Positions 19,763 to 64,000 of a DNA stretch of 64,000 nucleotides are shown in pieces. The notes under the pieces are model-generated. The model worked only from the letters and a program-made list of their open reading frames with translations, was not told where the DNA came from and ran no database searches. A program made the translations under genes and the position numbers. Numbering within the stretch: position 1 is the stretch's first letter; each line of letters begins with the position of its first letter. Origin of the DNA: Apteryx mantelli (lineage: Eukaryota > Chordata > Aves > Apterygiformes > Apterygidae); assembly GCF_036417845.1 (NCBI RefSeq), contig NC_090010.1, forward strand, positions 4,196,503 to 4,260,502, read 5' to 3'.

Positions 19763-21981
19763 ATGATGCTGCCAGGCCTGAAGAGCCCGTGGCTGGCCTT
19801 CCACGGCGGCGTCTTCGTGGGCTTCTCAGCCACCTTCTACCTCCTCAACGGCGTCCTGCTGCCGTGGCCGGTGCCGCCGGCGCGCCAAGCCCCCCCGGCG
19901 GGCGAGGACCCTGTGGGGGCCGCCCAGCGCCCCGGGCTCTTCAGCGTGGCTCAGCCGCGCTCCGCAGGTGGGTGACGCCACGGTGAGGGGCACGTGGAGA
20001 GCACCGGGGGCTGGATCTGCCCCGGCCGGGGACGCTTGTCCTGATCCCATCAGTTGGGGCCACGGGAGGCTTGAGGGTCCCCAGCACCCAGGGCGCACGT
20101 CGTGGGGGGGCTCAGCCCCCTAGAGGAGTGGGGGGCATTTGGAAACCCCTTGTCCACATGCATTGGTGGCCTCCCATGGTCCAGGAGGCTTTGGCCACAG
20201 GCAGTGCAGCGCAGCTGGGGGCAACGTGGCTGAGCGCCCTGAGGGCCCCCGCGGTCTGTGGCCGACGTCACCCCTGTGCCCACAGGAGAGGACAGCAGCG
20301 TGGCGGACGAGCTGTACCGGCGGGTGCGCATCCTGTGCTGGGTGATGACGGGGCCCCGCAACCTGGAGAGCAAGGCCCGGCACGTGCGGGCCACATGGAC
20401 CCGCCACTGCAACGTGGCCCTGTTCATGAGCTCGGAGCGGGACGAGCGCTTCCCGGCCGTGGGGCTGCCCGCCAAGGAGGGCCGCGACCAGCTCTACTGG
20501 AAAACCATCCGGGCGTTCCAGTACGTGCACCGGCACCACCTGGGCCAAGCTGACTGGTTCCTCAAGGCGGACGACGACACCTTCGTGGTGGTGGCCAACC
20601 TGCGCTGGCTGCTGGCCAACTACACCCCCGAGCGCCCCATCTACTTCGGCAAGCGCTTCAAGCCCTTCGCCAAGCAGGGCTACATGAGCGGCGGCGCCGG
20701 CTACGTGCTCAGCAAGGAGGCCCTGCGGCGCTTCGTGGCTGCCTTCGCCTCCCGCGCCTGCACCCACACCAGCGCCGTGGAGGACCTGGCGCTGGGGCAG
20801 TGCATGGAGAAGCTGGGCGTGGAGGCGGGCGACTCGCGCGACACCCGGGGCCGCGAGACCTTCCACCCCTTCGTCCCCGAGTCCCACCTCACCGAGAAGT
20901 TCTCCAAGAGCTTCTGGTACTGGAACTACTGCTACTACCCCATCGTGGAGGTACGTGGCACCTCCCGGGGGCTCGTGACTGCCGCACTGCCCCGGCCGTC
21001 CCCGTTTTGTCCTGCTGGCACGGTCCTTGCCGGCGCCTCTGTCACCGGCCACGGGGCTGAGCCACCCGCTGTGGCTGCGGTCTCCTGTCCCCGTTGAGCC
21101 CGTTGGTGGGAAAGCTGCCCCGTGGCCCCGGTCCTGCTCGCCCCGGGGGCGCCGGCCACCCCCCGGCACTGCTGTCCTGCTGGGTGTCACGGGGCCACCA
21201 GCTCAGGTCTGGCTCAGCTCCATGTGGTGCGGGCTAAGCCGGCCACGGGGTTAATAGCCTCCGTGGGCGGTGTGACCACGCTGGCCCCGCGCCTGCCCCA
21301 CGCTGGGGATCGGGGGCTGGGGGCTGGTTCTGTGGGGCTGGGGGGGCCTTGCCTTGTGGGGCAGGGGGCTGGTTTTAGGGGATCTAAAGAATCCTGGCCA
21401 TGGGGGGCTGAGGCTGGGGGGGGGGCAGCTGGTCTTATGGGGCTGGGGGTCCTGGATGGGGGGGGGCTGGAGGGTGGGTTTGTGGGTCCAGGGGCTCCTG
21501 GCCATGTGGGGCTGGGGGGTCCCGGCTGTGCTGGACCCTGGGCTGCCGGGAGTTGCCTTGGGGGAGGCCTGGGAGCTGCCACCCCCCCACCAAACACCCT
21601 GCCATGGGGATGGACCTGGCCAGAGGCCATGGTGATGGGCTGGAGGGGGTGTGGGGGGAACCTGGCCAGAGGCAATGGTGATGTACTGGGAGGGATATGG
21701 CCAGAGGCCACGGTGATGGGCTGGGGGTGGGGGGGGGGTGGGGGAGGGAATCCAACCTCGGCATGTCTCCCCCCCCCCCCAGCTCCTGTCTCTGCCCCCA
21801 GGGCCCCCAGTGCTGCTCCGACCTGGCCGTGTCCTTCCACTACGTGAGCGGGGAGCAGATGTACGTGCTGGAGTACCTCACCCACCGCCTGCGCCCCTAC
21901 GGCTACCGGCCCCGCTACCGCCCCCCACTGCCCGCCCTGGCCCCCGTGCCCCCCGCGCCCCCCAACACCACCCTGCCGTAG
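19763..21981 (+). CDS. Core 1 beta-1,3-galactosyltransferase paralogue (C1GALT1-like)
   Basis: This is a member of glycosyltransferase family 31 closest to C1GALT1 (T-synthase), which adds galactose to GalNAc-Ser/Thr in the Golgi. Coding exons are 19763-19967, 20286-20950 and 21802-21981, phases consistent, 349 aa (human C1GALT1 363). A short N-terminus is followed by a type II anchor at about 8-28 ([21 protein letters not shown]) and a Pro-rich stem. The catalytic domain has [25 protein letters not shown], a metal-binding KADDDTF (Asp164-166), [31 protein letters not shown] and [10 protein letters not shown]. The last exon has [15 protein letters not shown] and [10 protein letters not shown]. 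All expected catalytic motifs are intact. It lies between OS9 and AGAP2, where the human order has no such gene. Activity and acceptor are inferred only from the family; whether it needs the chaperone C1GALT1C1 is unknown. Confidence 0.88.
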
Positions 21982-41882: not shown

Positions 41883-44234
41883 TCAGGGGCTCACGGGGTA
41901 CGAGGAGGCCACGAAGCGCTGGCCGTCCCCGTAGAAGGAGTTGGTCCAGGAGTAGGTCTGGATCCGGGCGGCTTTGCCCCCCAGGCTCACGTGGCACCTG
42001 CGGGGACCGAGACGGCGTTGTGACCCATGGGGCCAGGGCCGCGGACGGCAGAGCCCATCCACGCCACCCCCGGGTGCGGGTGCCCCCCACTCACTGCTGG
42101 TCGGGCCGGGCTTTGTAGCACAGGGTGTAGAGGGCCAGGTCGAACTCGGGGCTGGAGCCCATGAAGACGGAGCCGATGCTCTTGAGGTAGCCGCTCCAGC
42201 GGTACTGCAGGGCCAGGACGTCGGGGAAGGCAGCCCACTGCGGGCACAGGGGCGCGTTCGGGGGACGCCGGGGACGGCCATGCTGGGGAGGGTCACGGGG
42301 GCACGAGGACTGGGGTGACAGTCACAGGGGGGAGATAGGAACCGTGGGGACGGTCATGGGGCAACGGGGACCCTGAGGTTGGTCGCAGGGGGACGGAGAC
42401 CCTGGGGATGGACGTAGAGGAAGAAGGACCTTGGGGATGATGAGGGGGAAGAGGGTCTCTGGGGACATTCACTGGGAGGAGGTTTGGGATCTTGGGGATG
42501 GCCATAGGGGGACACGGACCCTGGGAACAGGCACAGGGACTCTGGGGATGCCTGTGGCTGGGATATAGGCGCTGGGGACAAGTCGGGGAGCTGCCAGGAC
42601 CCGTGTCCCTTGGGTGATGGGAACTGTCCCCTCCTGGGGGGTCCCCTGTCCCCGCACTCACGGGCCCATCGTAGCTGTAGCTCAGGTAGTTGAGTTGTCC
42701 CGATTTCTCCAGCTCGTAGAGCTGGACCCAGCTGTGGCAGCCTGACACCGTCCCCTTCTTGATCTCCCCTGGGCAGAGAGCGGGGTGAGGACAACGTGTC
42801 CCCGTGTCCCCAAGCTCTGTCCCCCCATCCGCCCCATATCCCCAGGTCCCCATCTCCCCCTGTTCTCATCCCCAGGGACTCTGCCCCCTGCATTCCCTTG
42901 TCTTTCCCTTCCCCATGTGTCCCATATCCCCCCCGTCCCCCCGGCTCCATCCTCCCTGTCCCCCCCCGTGGTACCGTGGAAGACGTGCTCAAAGCCGGAG
43001 GAGTCGAGGGCCGCCCCGCTGGAGCGCGAGTACAGCCCGAACCACATGTCCTTCAGGTCAGCCTGGAAAGCGTCCGCCGAGGGGTACAGGCCTGGGGGGA
43101 CCGCGGTGCCGTGGGGCCAGGCCGGGGGGGGGCACAGCCACCCCCAGCCCAGGCAGTGCCAGCCCCTTGCTGGCCCCATGGTATCCCCAGCCCCGTTTCC
43201 CTCCCGTCCCCTGTCCCCATCCCCTACCCTTGGCGAGGAAGAAGCGCGTGAGCGTGGCCATGACGGGCGTCCGGAAGACAGCCTCCAGGAAGGCCTCCTC
43301 CTCCTCCTCCTCCTCGGACGTCAGCGTCTCGCTGTGGCCCGTCATCTTGTCGTAGTTGTCCAGGAGGGCCAGGAGCCGGGCAAAGGTGGGCTTGGCAAAG
43401 AGCGTGGCCTCCGCCACGTACTTGAAGAGGCTGGGCCACGGGGAAGGTGAAGGAGATATGGCGACAGGAGCGGAGGCACAGGAGAAGGTTATATGGGTGG
43501 GTGGATATGGGATGGATGGACAGATAGGGGATGGCTGGAAGGACAGCAGACAGATGGATAAGGATGGAAGGACAGACAGGTGGACAACAAGATGGATATG
43601 GGTGGACAGAGATAGATGCACTGAGGGATGGATCAGTGTAGGTTGGATGGATGGATATAGGATGGAAGAAGAGAAAAATATATACAGGCAGATGGACAGA
43701 TGATTGAATGGACAGACAGACAGACAGACAGACATGGATGTTTGAAGGACAGATAGATAGCTGCATGGCTAGTTAGATGGCCAGATGGGTGGATAAACCA
43801 ATGAGCAGATGGACAGACAGATGGCCAAAAGGACAGACAGCCAGGCGGGTGGAGGGACAGACAGGTGCCTGGGCACTTCCCACGCTCTTCCCCCCGCTCG
43901 GCACCTCTTCGAGGCATAGTCCTTGCCGGCGCTGGCCTCCGAGGTCAGGATCCTGTGCTGCAGGTCGAGGATGATCTCCCCGCTGGCGGCCCGGTTCCCG
44001 TCGGCGGCGTAGAGCTGCTCCGAGACGTCCCTGAGCTCGTCGTCGGAGATGGAGCGGAGGGCGAGGAGCTCGGCCCGCTCGCGCCCTGGGGATGAGAGAG
44101 GGAGAGAAAAGAGAGATGCGGGTTCAGCGGGCGCCGCGGCTGTGACATCCCCGACCTGCAGCCGCCCCCTCACCGAAAAAGGCCCCGTGGGTCAAGCAGG
44201 GCAGGAGGCAGAGCAGCCCCAGCGCCGCTGCCAT
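41883..44234 (-). CDS. Secreted EndoU-family (XendoU) endoribonuclease-like protein
   Basis: EndoU (XendoU) enzymes cleave RNA at uridylates in a metal-dependent way. Seven coding exons on minus: 44234-44174, 44085-43905, 43430-43228, 43091-42975, 42768-42662, 42237-42095, 41997-41883; 308 aa. A signal peptide covers about residues 1-18 ([17 protein letters not shown]). One EndoU domain fills the rest. The expected catalytic residues are present: His184 in SGFEHVFHG, His199 in [10 protein letters not shown], and Lys242 in WSGYLKSIG, followed by [18 protein letters not shown]. There is no somatomedin-B domain, unlike human ENDOU, so it resembles the short poly(U)-specific endoribonuclease-like proteins of non-mammals. 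An E-run (seven Glu) lies in exon 3. It is transcribed divergently from TSPAN31 and sits in the AGAP2-TSPAN31 interval, where the human order has no gene. Symbol left blank because orthology to ENDOU is uncertain. Confidence 0.88.
42290..42560. repeat. Degenerate GGGGACGGAGACCCTGGGGATGG repeat in an EndoU-like intron
   Basis: Repeated ACCxTGGGGATGGxCxTAGGGGGA modules every 30-35 bp or so. Confidence 0.65.
43485..43860. repeat. (GGAT)n/(GACA)n microsatellite in an EndoU-like intron
   Basis: Interrupted GGATGGATGGACAGATA arrays with a (GACA)n run at about 43712-43732. Confidence 0.92.
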
Positions 44235-50649: not shown

Positions 50650-52952
<2,303 letters not shown>

Positions 52953-53149
52953 GTTGGCACCGCGCTCGGCCGGGGCCCCCGGCACCCTGCAGCACCCGCT
53001 GACCGGCACCGGGGTCAGCCGGGACTGGCCTGCACCCCACAGCCAGCGCCCCAAGGAGAGGGGTCCGCTGGGGGCACCCAGCACCCTGCAGCCCCTGGCA
53101 TGTCCTGGATGCCCAGCTCAGACGTGGCCACGGCACCGTGTGGCCCCCT

Positions 53150-53645
53150 CCAAAGCCCAACCCCAGCACCCCAAGGCACCAGCACCCCAGAGCACCCTGC
53201 AGATCCCAGCACCCTGCAGACTCCAGCACCCCAAGGGACCAGCACCCCACAGCTCCCAGCACCCCAAGGGACCAGCACCCCAAGGGACTATGCAGATCCC
53301 AGCACCCCAAGGCACCAGCACCCCAGAGCACCCTACAAATCCCAGCATCCTGCAGACTCCAGCATCCCAGGGACCAGCACCCCACAGCTCCCTGCAGATC
53401 CCAGCACCCCAAGGCACCAGCACCCCACAGCTCCCTGCAGATCCCAGCACCCCAAGGCACCAGCACCCCAGAGCACCCTACAGATCCCAGCACCCCAAGG
53501 GACCAGCACCCCAGAGCACCATGCAGATCCCAGCACCCCACAGCTCCCAGCACCCCAAGGGATCAGCACCCCACAGCTCCGTGCAGCTCCCAGCACCCCA
53601 AGGGACCAGCACCCCACAGCACCCCGCAGCTGCCAGCACCCCTAG
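53150..53645. repeat. CAGCACCCCA repeat in the CDK4 5' UTR intron
   Basis: About 500 bp of CAGCACCCCAAGGCACCAGCACCCCAGAGC modules joined by CACCCTGCAGATCC, with higher-order copies of about 65-110 bp. Confidence 0.9.
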
Positions 53646-53789
53646 CACCCATGGATTCCCCCCTCCTCCCGCCAGACCTCTGCTGCTTCTCCCCTGTTGT
53701 TAGCACTATTCCCCCCCCCCCCCGCAACTCTACGACAACACGCCCCCTCCCAGGGACACGCGTGCAACAGGGATCCTGGGGGGGGAGGC

Positions 53790-54175
53790 TCTGTCCCCTC
53801 GTGCAAGGGGCCGGTGCACGGGGAAAGGCGCGTGCAAAGGGGGCCCGGGGGGGGGAGGGGCCGCCCGCGTGCAAGGCGCTCGTGCAAGGCGGGGGCCGCC
53901 CGCGTGCGGCGGGGCCGGTGCAAGGTGCGGGTGCCACGCGCGCACGGGGCTGGTGCAAGGCGCGGTGGGGGATCCCACGCGTGAAAGGGGCCGGGGGTCC
54001 CGCGCGTGCACGGGGCGCGTGCAAGAGGGCTCCGCCGCGTGCACGGGGCGCGCTCGTGCAAAGGGGCCCGTGCAAGGGGCCCGTGCAAGGGGCCGCACCC
54101 GTGCAAGACCCCCCTGCAAAGGGCCCCACTCGTGCAAGGCGCCCGTGCAAAGCGGCGCGGCGCGCACCGGGGCCC
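53790..54175. repeat. CGTGCAAGGxG-rich repeat near the CDK4 promoter
   Basis: Repeated GTGCAAGG/CGCGTGCA motifs in CpG-rich context immediately 3' (gene sense) of the CDK4 non-coding exon. Confidence 0.8.
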
Positions 54176-54326
54176 CGGGACTCACCCGAGCAGCAGCGCG
54201 CGTCCCGCGGGTTTCGGTGGCGGGGCCCGGGCCGGGGGCGGGGCTGGAGGACCGGAACCAGAGAGACGGGCCGGCCGGAAGGGCTGGGGGGGGAGGTGAG
54301 GGAGTCGCACGCCTGGGCCCCCTGAC

Positions 54327-54332
54327 TTTATT
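54327..54332 (-). terminator. Orphan poly(A) signal upstream of CDK4
   Basis: AATAAA on the minus strand (CCCAATAAAGTCAGG), close to the expected CDK4 transcription start. It would end a minus-strand transcript coming from higher coordinates, but no coding exon was recognised between it and CYP27B1. Confidence 0.4.
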
Positions 54333-56690
54333 GGGAGGGGCGGGAAGGGGGGGGGATGCTGCGTGCCGGTTCGCAGGGGGCAGCCCCGGACGCCTGGGTT
54401 CCTTCCTCCCTTCCCGGATGCCCGGAGTGGGGGGGCACCACCCCCCCCGGACGCCTGGGCTCCCCGCCCCGGGGGGGGAGGAGGGGTGATGGGGGTGGCG
54501 CCCCGGGCCGGACTCGAACCCGCGATCCCGAGCGCTGCCCGCCCGCCCCCCCTTCCCGGAGCCGCGGCGCGACGGCGCCCCCCCAGCGGGCAGCGACCTC
54601 GCCGCCCCCGCGGCTCCGGCGTCGCGGAGCCCACGCGCGTGGGGCCCCTCGCCCGGCGGGGCGGGGAGGGCTCCGGTAAGGATTCACCGGGAGCAAACGG
54701 CTGTCGCCAAATCCGCGCCTGTCCCCCACCGCGGGGCTGCCCGGGCCCCTCCCCGCTCCGGCACCGGCACCCCCCGGCCCCGGGACGGGACCGCCGAGAC
54801 CTCCCCGGCCCCGGGACCCCCAGCACCAAGAAACCCCCCGGGACCCCGCCAGCCCCGGGACCGAGACCCCGAGACCATCCCCATCTCCCAGCACCAGGCC
54901 GGGCCCCTGGACTCCCCCCAGGCTGCCAACGCTGCGGTCGGGCCCCCCCCCCCGGCACCACGACCCCCAGGACCCTCCACCTGGAGGGGGAAGGGACCCC
55001 CGAGACCTCCCCAGGGCCTCCCGGGACCGAAACCCACGGGACTGAGACCCCTGGGACACCGAGCTTGGGCACCGGCCCGCCAAGTGGAGCGGACCCCCAA
55101 AGGACCCCCCCAGGGGCCGGGACCCCCATCCGGGGACGCCCAAGACCCCCAGCTGCGGGCGGGGACCCCTCCGGGTCCTCCGGCCCCCCCTCGTAGCCGT
55201 CACCGGGACCCGGCCTCTGTCCGTGGTGCTGAAAGGGCCCCAGCGCCGGGAGTGGCCTGTGGGTCTCACGGGGGACGGGGACCGCGGCGGGGGGCACCGA
55301 GCCCACGGGGGGGGGGGGACAGGGACCTCAGAGGACACTGGGACCATGTGCGGCACCGGGCCCACGGGTGGGACAAGGCCCGGGGAGGGCTGCTCCCCAG
55401 ATCCACCCCCTGGCCCCCACGGGGCTCCCCCCAGGCCGGGGGTCCCCGCCACGTCCCGGGGCCGCTGTGCGGTGCTGGGCACGGCGGGGCTGAGCCCCAC
55501 ATCTGGGAACAGCTGGGCGTGCAGAGGTGGCACCGCGGGCCCACGCGTGTGAATACTGCTCCCACACACGAGCACACGTGTGTGCACACAGCTCCTCGGA
55601 CACGCCACGTCCCCATGCCCACAGCCCCCAAGCCGCCCTGGTTTTGGGGGGGGGGGGCCAGGCGGTGCCCACCCCGGGGTTGCCACGTCCCCGGCACCGC
55701 GGGCACCCACCCTGCTGCTCCCCAGCTCCGTGCAGAGCGGGAAGGCGCCGGGGCACCCGGAGGGCAAAAGGCCAGCGCGGGGCAGCGCTGCCGGCTCCGT
55801 GCCAGGCCTCGCCGTGCCTGAGCCACCACGCACGGCTGGGTTGGCGTCAAGAGGCGCCGGGGGCCCCTGCGGGGTCCAGAGTCCCCCGAGCATTGACGTC
55901 AGTGCCACGTCCCCACGGGGCCGGCGGGGACATCAAGCGGCTCGGGGGGCAGCCGCGAAACGGGCACCTGAGGCCACGAGGAACCACCCGGGGGGGGGGG
56001 CAACGGCGGCGTGGGACAAGGGATGTCCCTGCCCTCTCCCTGCCCAGGGCCTAGCCAGCCCCGGGGAGCCCTGTTCGCCCCCACGGCACCCGGCACCACC
56101 TGGACTGGGAGCGTGTGGGGGCCGCGCTTCGCCCACCGCCATCCAGGCCACCCGGGTGCCGCCCGGCGGGTGTGGGGACGAGTCATGTCTGGGTGTCCCA
56201 CAGCACGCCGGGGCAGCGGGCATGTTGGGGCAGCGTGGCACGCCTCACTCCGGGAATGCCGGGCTGCTCTGGCACGGAGTCCCCTTTCCCCCTGGAGCCC
56301 TGCAAGGGCGGGCCAGGGCTGTGCCAGGGTGCAAAGGCAGCACTGTCCCCCTGGGGTGGGCACGTCGGGGCAGGGGTGCCCCCGGGGGCCCCCACTGCTG
56401 GCGCAGGTGGCACTGGGGGCGGGAAGCCAGATGGGAGCTCGGGGCACAGAACGGGCTTTGAATCACACCGGGAAGCTGGGGTGGGTGGCGCGGGCCGATG
56501 GGAAGGGCTCAGGAATGGGGGTGAAGTCAGCGGCACCCCCCCCCCCCCCCCGGCGCGGCCCCCGGGGGCAGGGAGCGCCGCTTGCTGGCGAGTCGGTGCA
56601 GCCCGAGCGGCCCCGCGCCAACCCATAGCCTCCAGACGCGGCTGGAGCCCGGCCAAGCAGGTGCACCGCTGCCGCTCCCCGCTCCGTACA
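54333..56690. other. Spacer between CDK4 and CYP27B1 without a recognised gene
   Basis: GC-rich unique DNA with C-runs and CCGGGACC(C/G) repeats (54770-55060). A tRNA-like B-box occurs near 54512-54530. Long open frames (for example minus 54328-55908) are proline/arginine/glycine-rich composition artefacts. MARCHF9, expected here from the human order, is not recognisable. Confidence 0.5.
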
Positions 56691-56696
56691 AACCCA

Positions 56697-56702
56697 TTTA
56701 TT
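56697..56702 (-). terminator. Poly(A) signal of CYP27B1
   Basis: AATAAA on minus (GGATAATAAATGGG), 246 bp after the CYP27B1 stop. A conserved-looking AT-rich stretch (56690-56745) surrounds it. Confidence 0.7.
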
Positions 56703-56947
56703 ATCCGCGGAGCAATAAATAAACCTTTAAATATCACTGCAGTGCTTGGAGCCTCCCCGCCGGCTGCAACCGAGAGGAGAGTCGGAAGCACGGACAGACC
56801 CGACCAGCCGGGCTCTGCCGTGGATGAGTCGGGCACTGCGTGGGGAGTCTCTTCCTTAAGAGCAATAATAAATAGGGCCCGTGGGCTTAAATAGGGGGCA
56901 GTTTGCAGACAGCCACCGCGGGGGCTGTGGGGGCCACGTGGGCCCGC

Positions 56948-57520
56948 TCAGCGGCTCAGGAACCGCAGGTTGATGTCCGTCTCGGGCACCAGCAGGGTCT
57001 GTGTCATGGGCTTGATGGGGCATCTGCCAGGCTTGGGCTTCACATTGAAGTGCAGGATCTGCAAGAGCCGGGGGGGGGGGGGATGAGCAGGGCTGCAGCG
57101 GGGGGGGGGGGACACGGCCGGCGGCGGGGGTCCCACTCTCACCTGCACCAGCGCCAAGTGGATCTCCAGCTCAGCGACGCGGCAGCTGACGCAGCTGCAC
57201 TTGCCCACGCCGAAGGGCACCGAGGCGAAGGGGTGGCCGCCGGGCTGGTGGCGCAGCCAGCGCTCCGGCCAGAAGGCATCAGGTGCAGGGAAGAACCGGC
57301 TGTCGCGGGACGTGGCGTAGTGGCACAGCATGATGAGGGTCTGTGGTGGTGGTGGTGGGGGACACACAAGCAGGACTGAGCCGCAGCAAGGGGGGGGGGG
57401 GGGGGGCGCAGAGCTGGCTCCCTCTGCGCCGCTATCCTGGTAGTCTCCCAAATGGATGTCCCGGTGGGAGATGACGCGGGCATTGCCGAGGATGACGGGG
57501 TACAACTCGCAGCAGGGGGG
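56948..57520 (-). pseudogene. CYP27B1: 3' exons of CYP27B1 (25-OH-vitamin D3 1-alpha-hydroxylase), apparently decayed
   Basis: CYP27B1 is the mitochondrial P450 that makes 1,25-dihydroxyvitamin D3. The last two exons, 57340-57143 and 57058-56948, have good splice sites and open frames (LIMLCHYATSRDSRFFPAPD, GGHPFASVPFG, RVAELEIHLALVQ, LLVPETDINLRFLSR) and match CYP27B1 better than CYP27A1. The heme loop, however, reads FGVGKCSCVSC instead of FGxGKRSCxGR: the heme-propionate Arg is Cys and the Gly after the Cys ligand is Ser. The exon before (about 57520-57425; YPVILGNARV, HRDIHLGDY) has one extra G in CTGCGA-G-TTGTACCCC, which breaks the frame. It lacks both the conserved end after GDY and a GT donor. 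The 10-bp array starts about 20 bp further upstream. It may be a pseudogene or a damaged or misassembled allele; earlier exons are outside the window. Confidence 0.72.
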
Positions 57521-57540: not shown

Positions 57541-60500
57541 GCCAATGTGAGCCCGTGCAAGCCCGTAGAGGCCCGTGCGAGCCCGTAGAAGGCCTATGCG
57601 AGCCCGTAGAGGCCCGTGCGAGCTTGTGCGCGCCCGTGCGAGCCCGTACGAGCCCGTAGCAGGCCTCTGCGAGCCCGTAGAGGCCCGTGCGAGCTTGTGC
57701 GAGCCCGTAGAGGCCCGTGCGAGCCCGTACGAGCCCGTACGAGCCCGTAGGAGGCCTCTGCGAGGCCGTAGAGGCCCGTGCGATCTTGTGCGAGCCCGTG
57801 TGCGCCCGTACGAGCCCGTACGAGCCTGTAGGATGCCTCTGCGAGCCCGTAGAGGCCCGTGCGAGCTTGTGCGAGCCCGTGCAGGCCCGTGCGAGCCCGT
57901 ACGAGCCCGTACGAGCCCGTAGGAGGCCTCTGCTCGCCCGTAGAGGCCCGTGCGAGCTTGTGCGAGCCCGTGCGCGCCCGTAGCAGGCCATTGCGAGCCC
58001 GTAGAGGCCCGTGCGAGCTTGTGCGAGCCCGTGCGCGCCCATGCGAGTCCGTACGAGCCCGTACGAGCCCGTAGGAGGCCTCTGCCCGCCCGTAGAGGCC
58101 CGTGCGAGCTTGTGCGAGCCCGTGCGGGCCCGTACGAGCCCGTACGAGCCTGTAGGATGCCTCTGCGAGCCCGTAGAGGCCCGTGCGAGCTTGTGCGAGC
58201 CCTTGCGAGCACGTACGAGCCCGTACGAGTCCGTAGCAGGCCTCTGCGAGCCCGTAGAGGCCCGTGCGAGCTTGTGCGAGCCCGTGCGCGCCCGTGCGAG
58301 CCCGTGCGAGCCCGTACGAGCCCGTAGGAGGCCTCTGCGAGGCCGTAGAGGCCCGTGCGAGCTTGTGCGAGCCCGTGCGCGCCCGTTCGCGCCCATGCGA
58401 GCCCGTACGAGCCCGTAGCAGGCCTCTGCGAGCCCGTAGAGGCCCGTGCGAGCTTGTGCGAGCCCTTGCGCGCCCGTACGAGCCCGTACGAGCCCGTACG
58501 AGCCCGTAGGAGGCCTCTGCGAGCCCGTAGAGGCCCGTGCGAGATTGTGCGAGCCTGTGCGCGCCCGTGCGCGCCCGTACGAGCCCGTACGAGCCCGTAG
58601 GAGGCCTCTGCCATCCCGCAGAGGCACGTGCGAGCTTGTGCGAGCCCGTGCGCGCCCCTGCGAGCCCGTACGAGCCCGTAGCAGGCCTCTGCGAGCCCGT
58701 AGAGGCCCGTGCGAGCTTGTGCGAGCCCGTGCGCGCCCGTGCGAGCCCGTACGAGCCCATACGAGCCCGTAGGAGGCCTCTGCGAGCCCGTAGAGGCCCG
58801 TGCGAGCTTGTGCGAGCCCGTGCGCGCCCGTGCGAGCCCTTACGAGCCCGTAGGAGGCCTCTGCGAGCCCGTAGAGGCCCGTGCGAGCTTGTGCGAGCCC
58901 GTGCGCGCCTGTACCAGCCCGTACGAGCCTGTAGGATGCCTCTGCAATCCCATAGAGGCCCGTGCGAGCTTGTGCGAGCCCGTGCAGGCCCGTGCGAGCC
59001 CGTACGATCCCGTATGAGCCCGTAGCAGGCCTCTGCGAGCCCGTAGAGGCCCTGTGCGAGCTTGTGCGAGGCCGTGCGAGCCCGTACGAGCCCGTACGAG
59101 CCCGTAGCAGGCCTCTGCGAACCCGTAGAGGCCCGTGCGAGCTTGTGCGATCCCGTGCGCGCCCGTACGAGCCCGTACGAGCCCGTAGGAGGCCTCTGCG
59201 AGCCCGTAGAGGCCCGTGCGAGCTTGTGCGAGCCCGTGCGAGCCCATGCGAGCCCGTACGAGCCCGTAGGAGGCCTCTGCTCGCCCGTAGAGGCCCGTGC
59301 GAGCTTGTGCGAGCCCGTGCGCGCCCGTGTGAGCCCGTACGAGCCCGTACGAGCCCGTAGGAGGCCTCTGCGAGCCCGTAGAGGCCCGTGCGAGCTTGTG
59401 CGCGCCCGTGCGAGCCCATGCGAGCCCGTACGAGCCTGTAGGAGGCCTCTGCTCGCCCGTAGAGGCCCGTGCGAGCTTGTGCGCGCCTGTGCGAGCCCGT
59501 ACGAGCCCGTACGAGCCCGTAGGAGGCCTCTGCGAGCCCGTAGAGGCCCGTGCGAGCTTGTGCGAGCCCGTGCGCGCCCGTGCGAGCCCGTACGAGCCCG
59601 TACGAGCCCGTAGGAGGCCTCTGCGAGCCCGTAGAGGCCCGTGCGAGCTTGTGGGAGCCCGTGCGTGCCCGTGCGAGCCCTTACGAGCCTGTACGAGCCC
59701 GTAGGAGGCCTCTGCTCGCCCGTAGAGGCCCGTGCGAGCTTGTGCGAGCCCGTGCGCGCCCGTAGCAGGCCATTGCGAGCCCGTAGAGGCCCGTGCAAGC
59801 TTGTGCGAGCCCGTGCGCGCCCATGCGAGTCCGTACGAGCCCGTACGAGCCCGTAGGAGGCCTCTGCGAGCCCGTAGAGGCCCGTGCGAGCTTGTGCGAG
59901 CCCGTGCGCGCCCGTGCGAGTCCGTACGAGCCCGTACGAGCCCGTAGCAGGCCTCTGCCCACCCGTAGAGGCCCGTGCGAGCTTGTGCGCGCCCGTGCGA
60001 GCCCATGCGAGCCCGTACGAGCCCGTAGGAGGCCTCTGCGAGCCCGTAGAGGCCCGTGCGAGCTTGTGCGAGCCCGTGCGCGCCCGTGCGAGCCAGTACG
60101 AGCCCGTAACAGGCCTCTGTGAGCCCGTAGAGGCCCGGGCGAGCTTGCGCGAGCCCTTGCGAGCCCATGCGAGCCCGTACGAGCCCGTAGGAGGCCTCTG
60201 CGAGCCCGTAGAGGCCCGTGCGAGCTTGGCGAGCCCGTGCGCGCCCGTGCGAGCCTGTACGAGCCCGTAGCAGGCCTCTGCGATCCCATAGAGGCCCGTG
60301 CGAGCTTGTGCGAGCCCGTGCGCGCCTGTGCGAGCCCGTACAAGCCCGTACGAGCCCTTAGCAGGCCTCTGCGAGCCCGTACGAGCCCGTGCGAGCTTGT
60401 GCGAGCCCGTGCGAGCCCGTACGAGCCCGTACGAGCCCGTAGCAGACCTCTGCGAGCCCGTAGAGGCCCGTGTGAGCTTGCGCGCGCCCGTGCGCGCCCA

Positions 60501-63500
60501 GGCGAGCCCGTACGAGCCCGTAGGAGGCCTCTCCCCGCCCGCAGAGGCCCATGCAAGCTTGTGAGAGCCCGTGCGCGCCCGTGTGAGCCCGTACGAGCCC
60601 GTACGAGCCCGTAGGAGGCCTCTGCCCGCCCGTAGAGGCCCGTGCGAGCTTGTGCGAGCCCATGCGTGCCAGTACGAGCCCGTACGAGCCCGTAGCAGGC
60701 CTTTGCGAGCCCGTAGAGGCCCGTGCGAGCTTGTGCGCGCCCGTGCGCGCCCGTGCGAGCCCATACGAGCCCGTAGGAGGCCTCTGGGAGCCCGTAGAGG
60801 CCCGTGCGAGCTTGTGCGAGCCCGTGCGCGCCCGTGCGAGCCCGTACGAGCCCGTACGAACCCGTAGCAGGCCTCTGCGAGCCCGTAGAGGCCTGTGCGA
60901 GCTTGTGCGAGCCCATGCGCGCCCGTGCGAGCCCGTACGAGCCCGTAGGAGGCCTCTGCCTGCCAGTAGAGGCCCGTGCGAGCCCGTACGAGCCCGTACG
61001 AGCCCGTAGGAGGCCTCTGCGAGCCCGTAGAGGCCCGTGCGAGCTTGTGCGAGCCCGTGCGCGCCCGTAGCAGGCCATTGCGAGCCCGTAGAGGCCCGTG
61101 CGAGCTTGTGCGAGCCCGTGCGCGCCCATGCGAGTCCGTACGAGCCCGTACGAGCCCGTAGGAGGCCTGTGCCCGCCCGTAGAGGCCCGTGCGAGCTTGT
61201 GCGAGCCCGTGCGGGCCCGTACGAGCCCGTACGAGCCTGTAGGATGCCTCTGCGAGCCCGTAGAGGCCCGTGCGAGCTTGTGCGAGCCCGTGCGCGTTTG
61301 TGCGAGCCCGTACGAGCCCGTAGGAGGCCTCTGCTCGCCCGTAGAGGCCCGTGCGAGCTTGTGCGCGCCTGTGCGAGCCCATGCGAGCCCGTACGAGCCC
61401 GTAGGAGGCCTCTGCTCGCCCGTAGAGGCCCGTGCGAGCTTGTGCGCGCCTGTGCGAGCCCATGCGAGCCCGTACGAGCCCGTAGCAGGCCTCTGCGAGC
61501 CCGTAGAGGCCCGTGCAAGCTTGTGCGAGCCCGTGCGAGCCCGTACGAGCCCGTACGAGCCCGTAGCAGGCCTCTGCGAGCCCGTAGAGGCCCGTGCGAG
61601 CTTGTGCACGCCAGTGCGCGCCCGTGCGAGCCTGTACGAGCCCGTAGGAGGCCTCTGCCATCCCGCAGAGGCCCGTGCGAGCTTGTGCGAACCCGTGCGC
61701 GCCCGTGCGAGCCCGTACGAGCCCGTAGGAGGCCTCTGCGAGCCCGTAGAGGCCCGTTCGAGCTTGTGCGAGCCCGTGCGCGCCCATGCGAGCCCGTACG
61801 AGCCCGTAGGAGGCCTCTGCGAGCCCGTAGAGGCCCGTGCGACCTTGTGCGAGCCCGTGCGCGCCCGTGCGAGCCCGTACGAGCCCGTACGAGCCCGTAG
61901 GAGGCCTCTGCGAGCCCGTAGAGGCCCGTGCGAGCTTGTGCGAGGCCGTGCGAGGCCGTGCGAGCCCGTACGAGCCCGTAGGAGGCCTCTGCGAGCCCGT
62001 AGAGGCCCGTGCGAGCTTGGCGAGCCCGTGCGCGCCCGTGCGAGCCTGTACGAGCCCGTAGCAGGCCTCTGCGATCCCATAGAGGCCCGTGCGAGCTTGT
62101 GCGAGCCCGTGCGCGCCTGTGCGAGCCCGTACAAGCCCGTACGAGCCCTTAGCAGGCCTCTGCGAGCCCGTACGAGCCCGTGCGAGCTTGTGCGAGCCCG
62201 TGCGAGCCCGTACGAGCCCGTAGCAGACCTCTGCGAGCCCGTAGAGGCCCGTGTGAGCTTGCGCGCGCCCGTGCGCGCCCAGGCGAGCCCGTACGAGCCC
62301 GTAGGAGGCCTCTCCCCGCCCGCAGAGGCCCATGCAAGCTTGTGAGAGCCCGTGCGCGCCCGTGTGAGCCCGTACGAGCCCGTACGAGCCCGTAGGAGGC
62401 CTCTGCCCGCCCGTAGAGGCCCGTGCGAGCTTGTGCGAGCCCATGCGTGCCAGTACGAGCCCGTACGAGCCCGTAGCAGGCCTTTGCGAGCCCGTAGAGG
62501 CCCGTGCGAGCTTGTGCGCGCCCGTGCGCGCCCGTGCGAGCCCATACGAGCCCGTAGGAGGCCTCTGGGAGCCCGTAGAGGCCCGTGCGAGCTTGTGCGA
62601 GCCCGTGCGCGCCCGTGCGAGCCCGTACGAGCCCGTACGAACCCGTAGCAGGCCTCTGCGAGCCCGTAGAGGCCTGTGCGAGCTTGTGCGAGCCCATGCG
62701 CGCCCGTGCGAGCCCGTACGAGCCCGTAGGAGGCCTCTGCCTGCCAGTAGAGGCCCGTGCGAGCCCGTACGAGCCCGTACGAGCCCGTAGGAGGCCTCTG
62801 CGAGCCCGTAGAGGCCCGTGCGAGCTTGTGCGAGCCCGTGCGCGCCCGTAGCAGGCCATTGCGAGCCCGTAGAGGCCCGTGCGAGCTTGTGCGAGCCCGT
62901 GCGCGCCCATGCGAGTCCGTACGAGCCCGTACGAGCCCGTAGGAGGCCTGTGCCCGCCCGTAGAGGCCCGTGCGAGCTTGTGCGAGCCCGTGCGGGCCCG
63001 TACGAGCCCGTACGAGCCTGTAGGATGCCTCTGCGAGCCCGTAGAGGCCCGTGCGAGCTTGTGCGAGCCCGTGCGCGTTTGTGCGAGCCCGTACGAGCCC
63101 GTAGGAGGCCTCTGCTCGCCCGTAGAGGCCCGTGCGAGCTTGTGCGCGCCTGTGCGAGCCCATGCGAGCCCGTACGAGCCCGTAGGAGGCCTCTGCTCGC
63201 CCGTAGAGGCCCGTGCGAGCTTGTGCGCGCCTGTGCGAGCCCATGCGAGCCCGTACGAGCCCGTAGCAGGCCTCTGCGAGCCCGTAGAGGCCCGTGCAAG
63301 CTTGTGCGAGCCCGTGCGAGCCCGTACGAGCCCGTACGAGCCCGTAGCAGGCCTCTGCGAGCCCGTAGAGGCCCGTGCGAGCTTGTGCACGCCAGTGCGC
63401 GCCCGTGCGAGCCTGTACGAGCCCGTAGGAGGCCTCTGCCATCCCGCAGAGGCCCGTGCGAGCTTGTGCGAACCCGTGCGCGCCCGTGCGAGCCCGTACG

Positions 63501-64000
63501 AGCCCGTAGGAGGCCTCTGCGAGCCCGTAGAGGCCCGTTCGAGCTTGTGCGAGCCCGTGCGCGCCCATGCGAGCCCGTACGAGCCCGTAGGAGGCCTCTG
63601 CGAGCCCGTAGAGGCCCGTGCGACCTTGTGCGAGCCCGTGCGCGCCCGTGCGAGCCCGTACGAGCCCGTACGAGCCCGTAGGAGGCCTCTGCGAGCCCGT
63701 AGAGGCCCGTGCGAGCTTGTGCGAGGCCGTGCGAGGCCGTGCGAGCCCATGCGAGCCCATACGAGCCCATACGAGTCCGTAGCAGGCCTCTGCGAGCCCG
63801 TAGAGGCCCGTGCGAGCTTGTGCGAACCCGTGCGAGCCCATGCGAGACGAGCCCGTACGAGCCCGTACGAGTCCGTAGCAGGCCTCTGCGAGCCCGTAGA
63901 GGCCCGTGCGAGCTTGTGCGAGCCCCTGCGCGCCCGTGCGAGCCCATACGAGCCCGTACGAGCCCGTAGGAGGCCTCTGCGAGCCCGTATAGGCCCGTGA
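57541..64000. repeat. 6.5-kb tandem array built from a 10-bp motif (GAGCCCGTAC)
   Basis: The array runs to the window edge. The basic motif is 10 bp, GAGCCCGTAC or GAGCCCGTGC. These are grouped into units marked by GGAGGCCTCTGC and GAGGCCCGTGCGAGCTTGTG. Unit spacing is mostly 91 bp, with 61- and 81-bp forms (start-to-start steps seen at 58264, 58355, 58446, 58537, 58709; 59550, 59641, 59732, 59793, 59884). That implies on the order of 70 units. It lies in CYP27B1 intron position or replaces upstream exons. Because 10 and 91 are not multiples of three and stops are rare, both strands carry long open frames that are not genes. Confidence 0.97.
60180..63749. repeat. 1.78-kb tandem duplication inside the 10-bp array
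   Basis: 60180-61968 and 61969-63749 are near-identical. Private variants recur at a fixed offset: the 1-bp-short GCGAGCTTGGCGAGCC at 60220 and 62011, CCCTTAGCAGG, GCGCGTTTGTGCGAG, TTGTGCACGCCAGTG. The offset is 1791 bp at the left end and 1781 bp after one 10-bp motif is lost from copy two (near 62205). Confidence 0.93.

Follow-up and report, generated by a model that had tools for sequence, protein, structure and literature searches.

We report that the window, a stretch of 64,000 nucleotides whose end is also the end of contig C33, carries on its minus strand the last third of a CYP27B1-like gene (hereafter the window copy), flanked on its 3' side by CDK4 exons and on its 5' side by a satellite array reaching as far as the contig end. 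The following features are referred to below:

52265-52955, minus strand: CDK4 exons, the neighbour on the 3' side of the tail copy
56566-56947, minus strand: copy of the 3' UTR and of adjoining downstream sequence; an AATAAA stands at 56702
56948-57058, minus strand: probable pseudo-exon 9, with an in-frame 3-bp deletion (one codon), nine substitutions and the stop codon kept
57143-57340, minus strand: probable pseudo-exon 8 of CYP27B1, reading KCSCVSCR against KRSCVGRR, with splice sites kept and the frame open
57184-57199, minus strand: three CpG-type heme-loop changes relative to the intact copy in the same genome
57441-57506, minus strand: exon 7 remnant, its last 16 bp and GT donor lost to a 21-bp deletion
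57549-64000, no strand assigned: satellite array with periods 81 and 91 (TRF), in place of all gene sequence 5' of the last part of intron 6

The P450 fragment and its surroundings

The penultimate exon (exon 8) is preceded by an AG acceptor before 57340 and followed by a GT donor after 57143, and the last exon occupies 57058-56948. Translation of the minus strand from 57340 to 57143 gives TLIMLCHYATSRDSRFFPAPDAFWPERWLRHQPGGHPFASVPFGVGKCSCVSCRVAELEIHLALVQ, which matches the P450 family PF00067 with 56.6 bits and has CYP24A1, CYP11A1 and CYP11B2 as its best solved relatives. Its heme loop is FGVGKCSCVSCR, i.e. FGVGKCSCVS, and departs from the motif of functional P450s, FxxGxRxCxG. The unusual loop, which had been pointed out in the original prediction, is thus real as judged by the translated sequence and by comparison with the intact copy described below. 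In the numbering of the intact copy the three changes are R442C (C>T at 57199), G446S (G>A at 57187) and R447C (C>T at 57184), each at a CpG position.

The human gene order quoted in the partial text of PMC9300649 is DTX3, ARHGEF25, SLC26A10, B4GALNT1, OS9, AGAP2, TSPAN31, CDK4, MARCH9, CYP27B1, METTL1 and METTL21B. Exons resembling DTX3, B4GALNT1, OS9, AGAP2 and TSPAN31 were named by eye in the window; Pfam supports the DTX3-like exons (RING) and the AGAP2-like exons (PH), while a Pfam search of the OS9-like and TSPAN31-like exons gave no match. For the exon at 52737-52955 CDK4 was the best hit (100 bits), with a CDK6 chain close to it (95 bits), and no other match above 71% identity was found in the genome, so this flank is not a redundant haplotype piece. 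A search for MARCHF9-type RINGv domains (PF12906) gave ten matches in the genome, none of them on C33 including window positions 53000-56600, which does not prove absence of the gene. Two features of the window have no counterpart in the human order as quoted in that part of PMC9300649: XendoU (ENDOU-like) exons on the minus strand at 42668-43762, between the AGAP2-like and TSPAN31-like exons, and an open exon on the plus strand at 20288-20953, after the OS9-like exons, with Fringe/Galactosyl_T similarity and C1GALT1-like by eye.

The array is a dispersed GC-rich satellite with 267 matches (40 of 1294 candidates scored); those listed lie on C33 and 12 other contigs, e.g. C34, C35, C177, C241 and C125. 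Because of this dispersal we gave up a first idea, in which the array had originated where the duplicate was joined. Near the contig end, positions 60422-61967 and 62203-63748 form a block of 1546 bases repeated without difference at an offset of 1781 bases, which would stem either from a recent duplication of higher order or from faulty assembly.

A complete CYP27B1 on the same contig

The exon was searched against the window's own assembly (1.504 Gb, 408 contigs). Nine matches were obtained: the window itself, C33:2631900-2632097 at 86% amino acid identity, and seven at 35-55%. The second CYP27B1 copy that the original prediction proposed to look for is therefore present, and it is complete. 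It lies at C33:2628357-2632298 (read as locus L009), 1.6 Mb from the window copy, and consists of nine exons separated by eight introns, all GT-AG, with 1494 bases encoding 497 codons plus a stop and no internal stop. Its heme loop is normal, FGVGKRSCVGRR (FGVGKRSCVG), and PF00067 matches over residues 35-491 with 317.7 bits. Among the 60 of 354 solved chains listed, the best relative was CYP24A1, followed by CYP11A1 and CYP11B2, and no CYP27 entry was present among these 60. The gene thus encodes a mitochondrial-type P450 with a complete heme loop.

METTL1 is located directly upstream of the complete copy (E 7.2e-112), preceded by an exon of METTL21B/EEF1AKMT3 (E 1.2e-29), an arrangement as in mammals. 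In the mouse, kidney enhancers of Cyp27b1 sit in introns of these two neighbouring genes (partial text of PMC7839818), so the complete copy would be the one on the regulated side, the enhancers here being putative. Taken together, the sequence features suggest that the complete copy is most likely the working gene, and we infer that it is expressed.

Exon 3 of the complete gene, the only early exon searched singly, occurs once in the genome, and the 961-bp tail occurs at two places, the window and C33:2631683-2632666 (90%). Seven of the eight exon matches besides the window (L002-L008, all but the weakest) were examined, and the loop Arg is present in all seven of these P450 loops, two of which (L007 and L008) have the same sequence. 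This supports Arg as the ancestral residue.

Structure and probable decay of the window copy

The homology (blastn) extends over window positions 57542-56566 against L009:6682-7681; its 3' end lies at 56566 by blastn or at 56609 by the last exact 8-mer. The trimmed core alignment has 871 identities (871 of 928 ungapped columns), 57 substitutions and six indels. Of the gene, the window retains a damaged exon 7, two further exons (8 and 9) and the 3' UTR. In exon 7 the 21-bp deletion corresponds to intact L009:6784-6804, and the acceptor has changed from CAG|G to CGAG, which shifts the AG by one base. In exons 8 and 9 the splice sites are intact and the reading frames open. Upstream, the last part of intron 6 abuts the array, and exons 1-6 are missing between there and the contig end. 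The copy has retained introns 7 and 8, which align with those of the parent; it was therefore not retroposed, and a processed pseudogene is ruled out.

We consider it very probable (roughly 93%) that the window copy is a pseudogene, an unprocessed, 5'-truncated duplicate of CYP27B1, which on the basis of the alignment starts at the end of intron 6 and stops shortly beyond the 3' UTR. It has the hallmarks of such pseudogenes: a parent elsewhere, retained introns, and disabling lesions (exons 1-6 replaced and the exon 7 splice sites damaged). Given a complete, normal-looking gene elsewhere on the contig, the damage in the window reads as ordinary pseudogene decay. The original prediction had listed a pseudogene with an active paralogue among its explanations. 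The first half of this is borne out by the complete gene on the same contig and by the missing exons 1-6 and broken exon 7 of the window copy, while the activity of the paralogue is predicted from its intact sequence.

The copy would have decayed at about neutral rates and mainly through CpG deamination, the heme-loop changes being three of the ordinary hits. CpG deamination had also been suggested in the original prediction, correctly: taking the intact copy as reference, 31 of the 57 substitutions change an intact CpG to TpG or CpA, eight are the reverse, nine are other transitions and nine are transversions. By direction, 45 are strong-to-weak, nine weak-to-strong and three neither. Exon 8 alone has 12 substitutions in 198 bp, nine of which change an amino acid, so that the remainder of this exon, described earlier as well conserved, is so only in relative terms.

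Neutral decay was simulated in 5000 runs with rates taken from the non-coding part of the window copy (changed sites: CpG 14/90, other G/C 11/297, A/T 6/166), with the intact copy as the ancestral state, i.e. with a direction unpolarised by a DNA outgroup. Exons 8 and 9 carry 21 substitutions, 15 of them nonsynonymous, against simulated means of 20.1 and 13.3. At least three nonsynonymous hits in the 12-codon heme loop were seen in 35% of the runs; the cluster is thus not more than expected by chance, since 15 of the 36 loop bases are in CpG. The totals accordingly give no sign of protein-level constraint, with few events and hence a result compatible with weak or past constraint. The fit in totals hides a difference between site classes. 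Compared with the non-coding part, CpG sites in exons 8 and 9 changed more (17/74 vs 14/90) and other G/C sites less (1/144 vs 11/297), which might be due to chance or to residual or past constraint.

Errors in base calling or assembly are very unlikely to account for the window copy, and so is allelism with the intact gene. Such readings draw on the position of the copy, 6.5 kb from the contig end and beside a satellite array, where assemblies fail, and on the exactly repeated 1546-bp array block. Against them are 57 substitutions and six indels spread over the 1-kb copy with a CpG-biased spectrum, and different flanks, the 3' flank leading to CDK4, unlike that of the complete gene, with a CDK4 exon for which the genome contains no second close match. 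On these grounds the base-call problem raised in the original prediction is dismissed as well.

The Arg lost from the window loop is presumably the one altered in human R453C. This human CYP27B1 variant is tabulated among mutations with no enzymatic activity (PMC7860650), and by analogy a protein carrying the window loop would be expected to be dead. That the exon belongs to the animal's sole CYP27B1, with constraint on the heme loop lost, is hardly tenable: the exon does read KCSCVSCR between its own intact splice sites, but the inactive human R453C enzyme speaks against this reading, and C33 carries a complete KRSCVGRR copy, by which it is refuted unless this second copy is foreign DNA. Relaxed constraint on the 1-alpha-hydroxylase, suggested earlier, is likewise not supported, as the complete copy keeps the normal motif. 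The seeming loss of an important residue from an enzyme of vitamin D metabolism is thereby removed, and annotation pipelines could wrongly call CYP27B1 defective at this end of the contig. In itself the case is unremarkable, and the rearrangement that produced it is of mild interest.

Origin of the duplicate and comparison with known systems

The split in the block that is contiguous in the human order falls within CYP27B1: the window has the CDK4 side, and METTL1 together with METTL21B/EEF1AKMT3 stands at the complete copy. The two halves lie 1.6 Mb apart in opposite orientation. The array family of the window also abuts the 3' side of the intact gene, and the satellite adjoining the two halves has opposite plus-strand orientations, as an inversion predicts. 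Orientations and gene order would fit an ancestral order recovered by re-inverting the segment, in a comparison that covers one assembly and is confounded with the orientation of a contig that ends in the array.

We tentatively regard an inversion whose staggered breaks fell in the tail of CYP27B1 as the most likely origin, at somewhat under even odds. Staggered breaks would leave one 1-kb copy of the tail at each breakpoint, in inverted orientation, and the other break of the inversion would lie in a satellite array. After the inversion the complete gene with its METTL1/EEF1AKMT3 side would be found at one breakpoint and a decaying tail beside CDK4 at the other. The inversion may, with similar reservation, have broken the CDK4-CYP27B1-METTL1 block inside the only 1-alpha-hydroxylase gene, which survived because its tail was duplicated, by staggered breaks or by satellite-mediated repair. 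If the inversion reading is true, the locus is a small example of a gene surviving a breakpoint inside it.

A second, somewhat less likely origin, given that the copy is a pseudogene, is a local tandem duplication giving the order complete gene, array, tail copy and CDK4, combined with mis-orientation of the terminal 1.6-Mb piece of C33. It likewise predicts opposite plus-strand orientations of the array, and it agrees with the array standing directly after the copied block at the complete gene and directly before it in the window. Downstream of the complete gene the array (C33:2632680-2650600) flips orientation for its last ~90 bases (L011:5520-5610, C33 about 2650520-2650610), and past the flip the sequence is of lower GC and lower CpG content; this change of orientation at the far end of the array would be in line with tandem duplication. 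Against tandem duplication, no N is present in L009-L020, so there is no marked gap at the array end, in an array that is hard to assemble, and the dispersal of the array family over many contigs argues against its birth at this junction. Tandem duplication would also recall the 'exon stuttering' of avian dot chromosomes, but the published exon parts are 20-187 bp long with a median of 36 (PMC12954441), as compared with exons 8 and 9, the greater part of exon 7 and the 3' UTR here. Only with the copy downstream and in the same orientation, as under tandem duplication, could the tail supply the intact gene with alternative terminal exons and give a catalytically dead isoform, which is scarcely credible: exons 8' and 9' do keep acceptor, donor, open frame, stop and AATAAA, but the substitution totals fit neutral decay and the copies are in opposite orientation 1.6 Mb apart in the assembly.

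Among the matches listed for CYP27B1 with pseudogenes, birds, microchromosomes or METTL1, no such CYP27B1 copy is described in the titles and opening parts of the abstracts. The four occurrences of CYP27B1 in the partial text of PMC6723978 do not concern a second copy, and CYP27 is not mentioned in PMC12954441. Compared with other unprocessed 5'-truncated pseudogenes nothing essential is different: introns, truncation, splice lesions, approximately neutral substitutions and a parent on the same contig are shared, and what is particular here is that the truncation point is a satellite array and that, as assembled, copy and parent face in opposite directions.

With avian exon stuttering (PMC12954441) the locus shares a GC-rich, repeat-rich gene region and a partial exon copy beside a repeat array. 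It differs in having one copy of ~1 kb (exons 7-9), located outside the parent's introns in the assembly, next to an array of a dispersed family. Stuttering is recognised by partial exon copies, usually clustered, in the adjacent intron, and here there is one extra copy 1.6 Mb away; single-copy cases are counted as stuttering too (PMC12954441), and the distance would vanish under tandem duplication.

Finally, inverted duplications at inversion breakpoints, attributed to a staggered-breaks mechanism, are described for Drosophila subobscura (PMC5080602, partial text). In these breakpoints as in the preferred inversion reading, the two ends of the inverted segment each carry one copy of a short block, the copies face opposite ways, and the gene order is broken at that block, whereas the present case concerns a bird, with satellite arrays at both ends and a single assembly compared.
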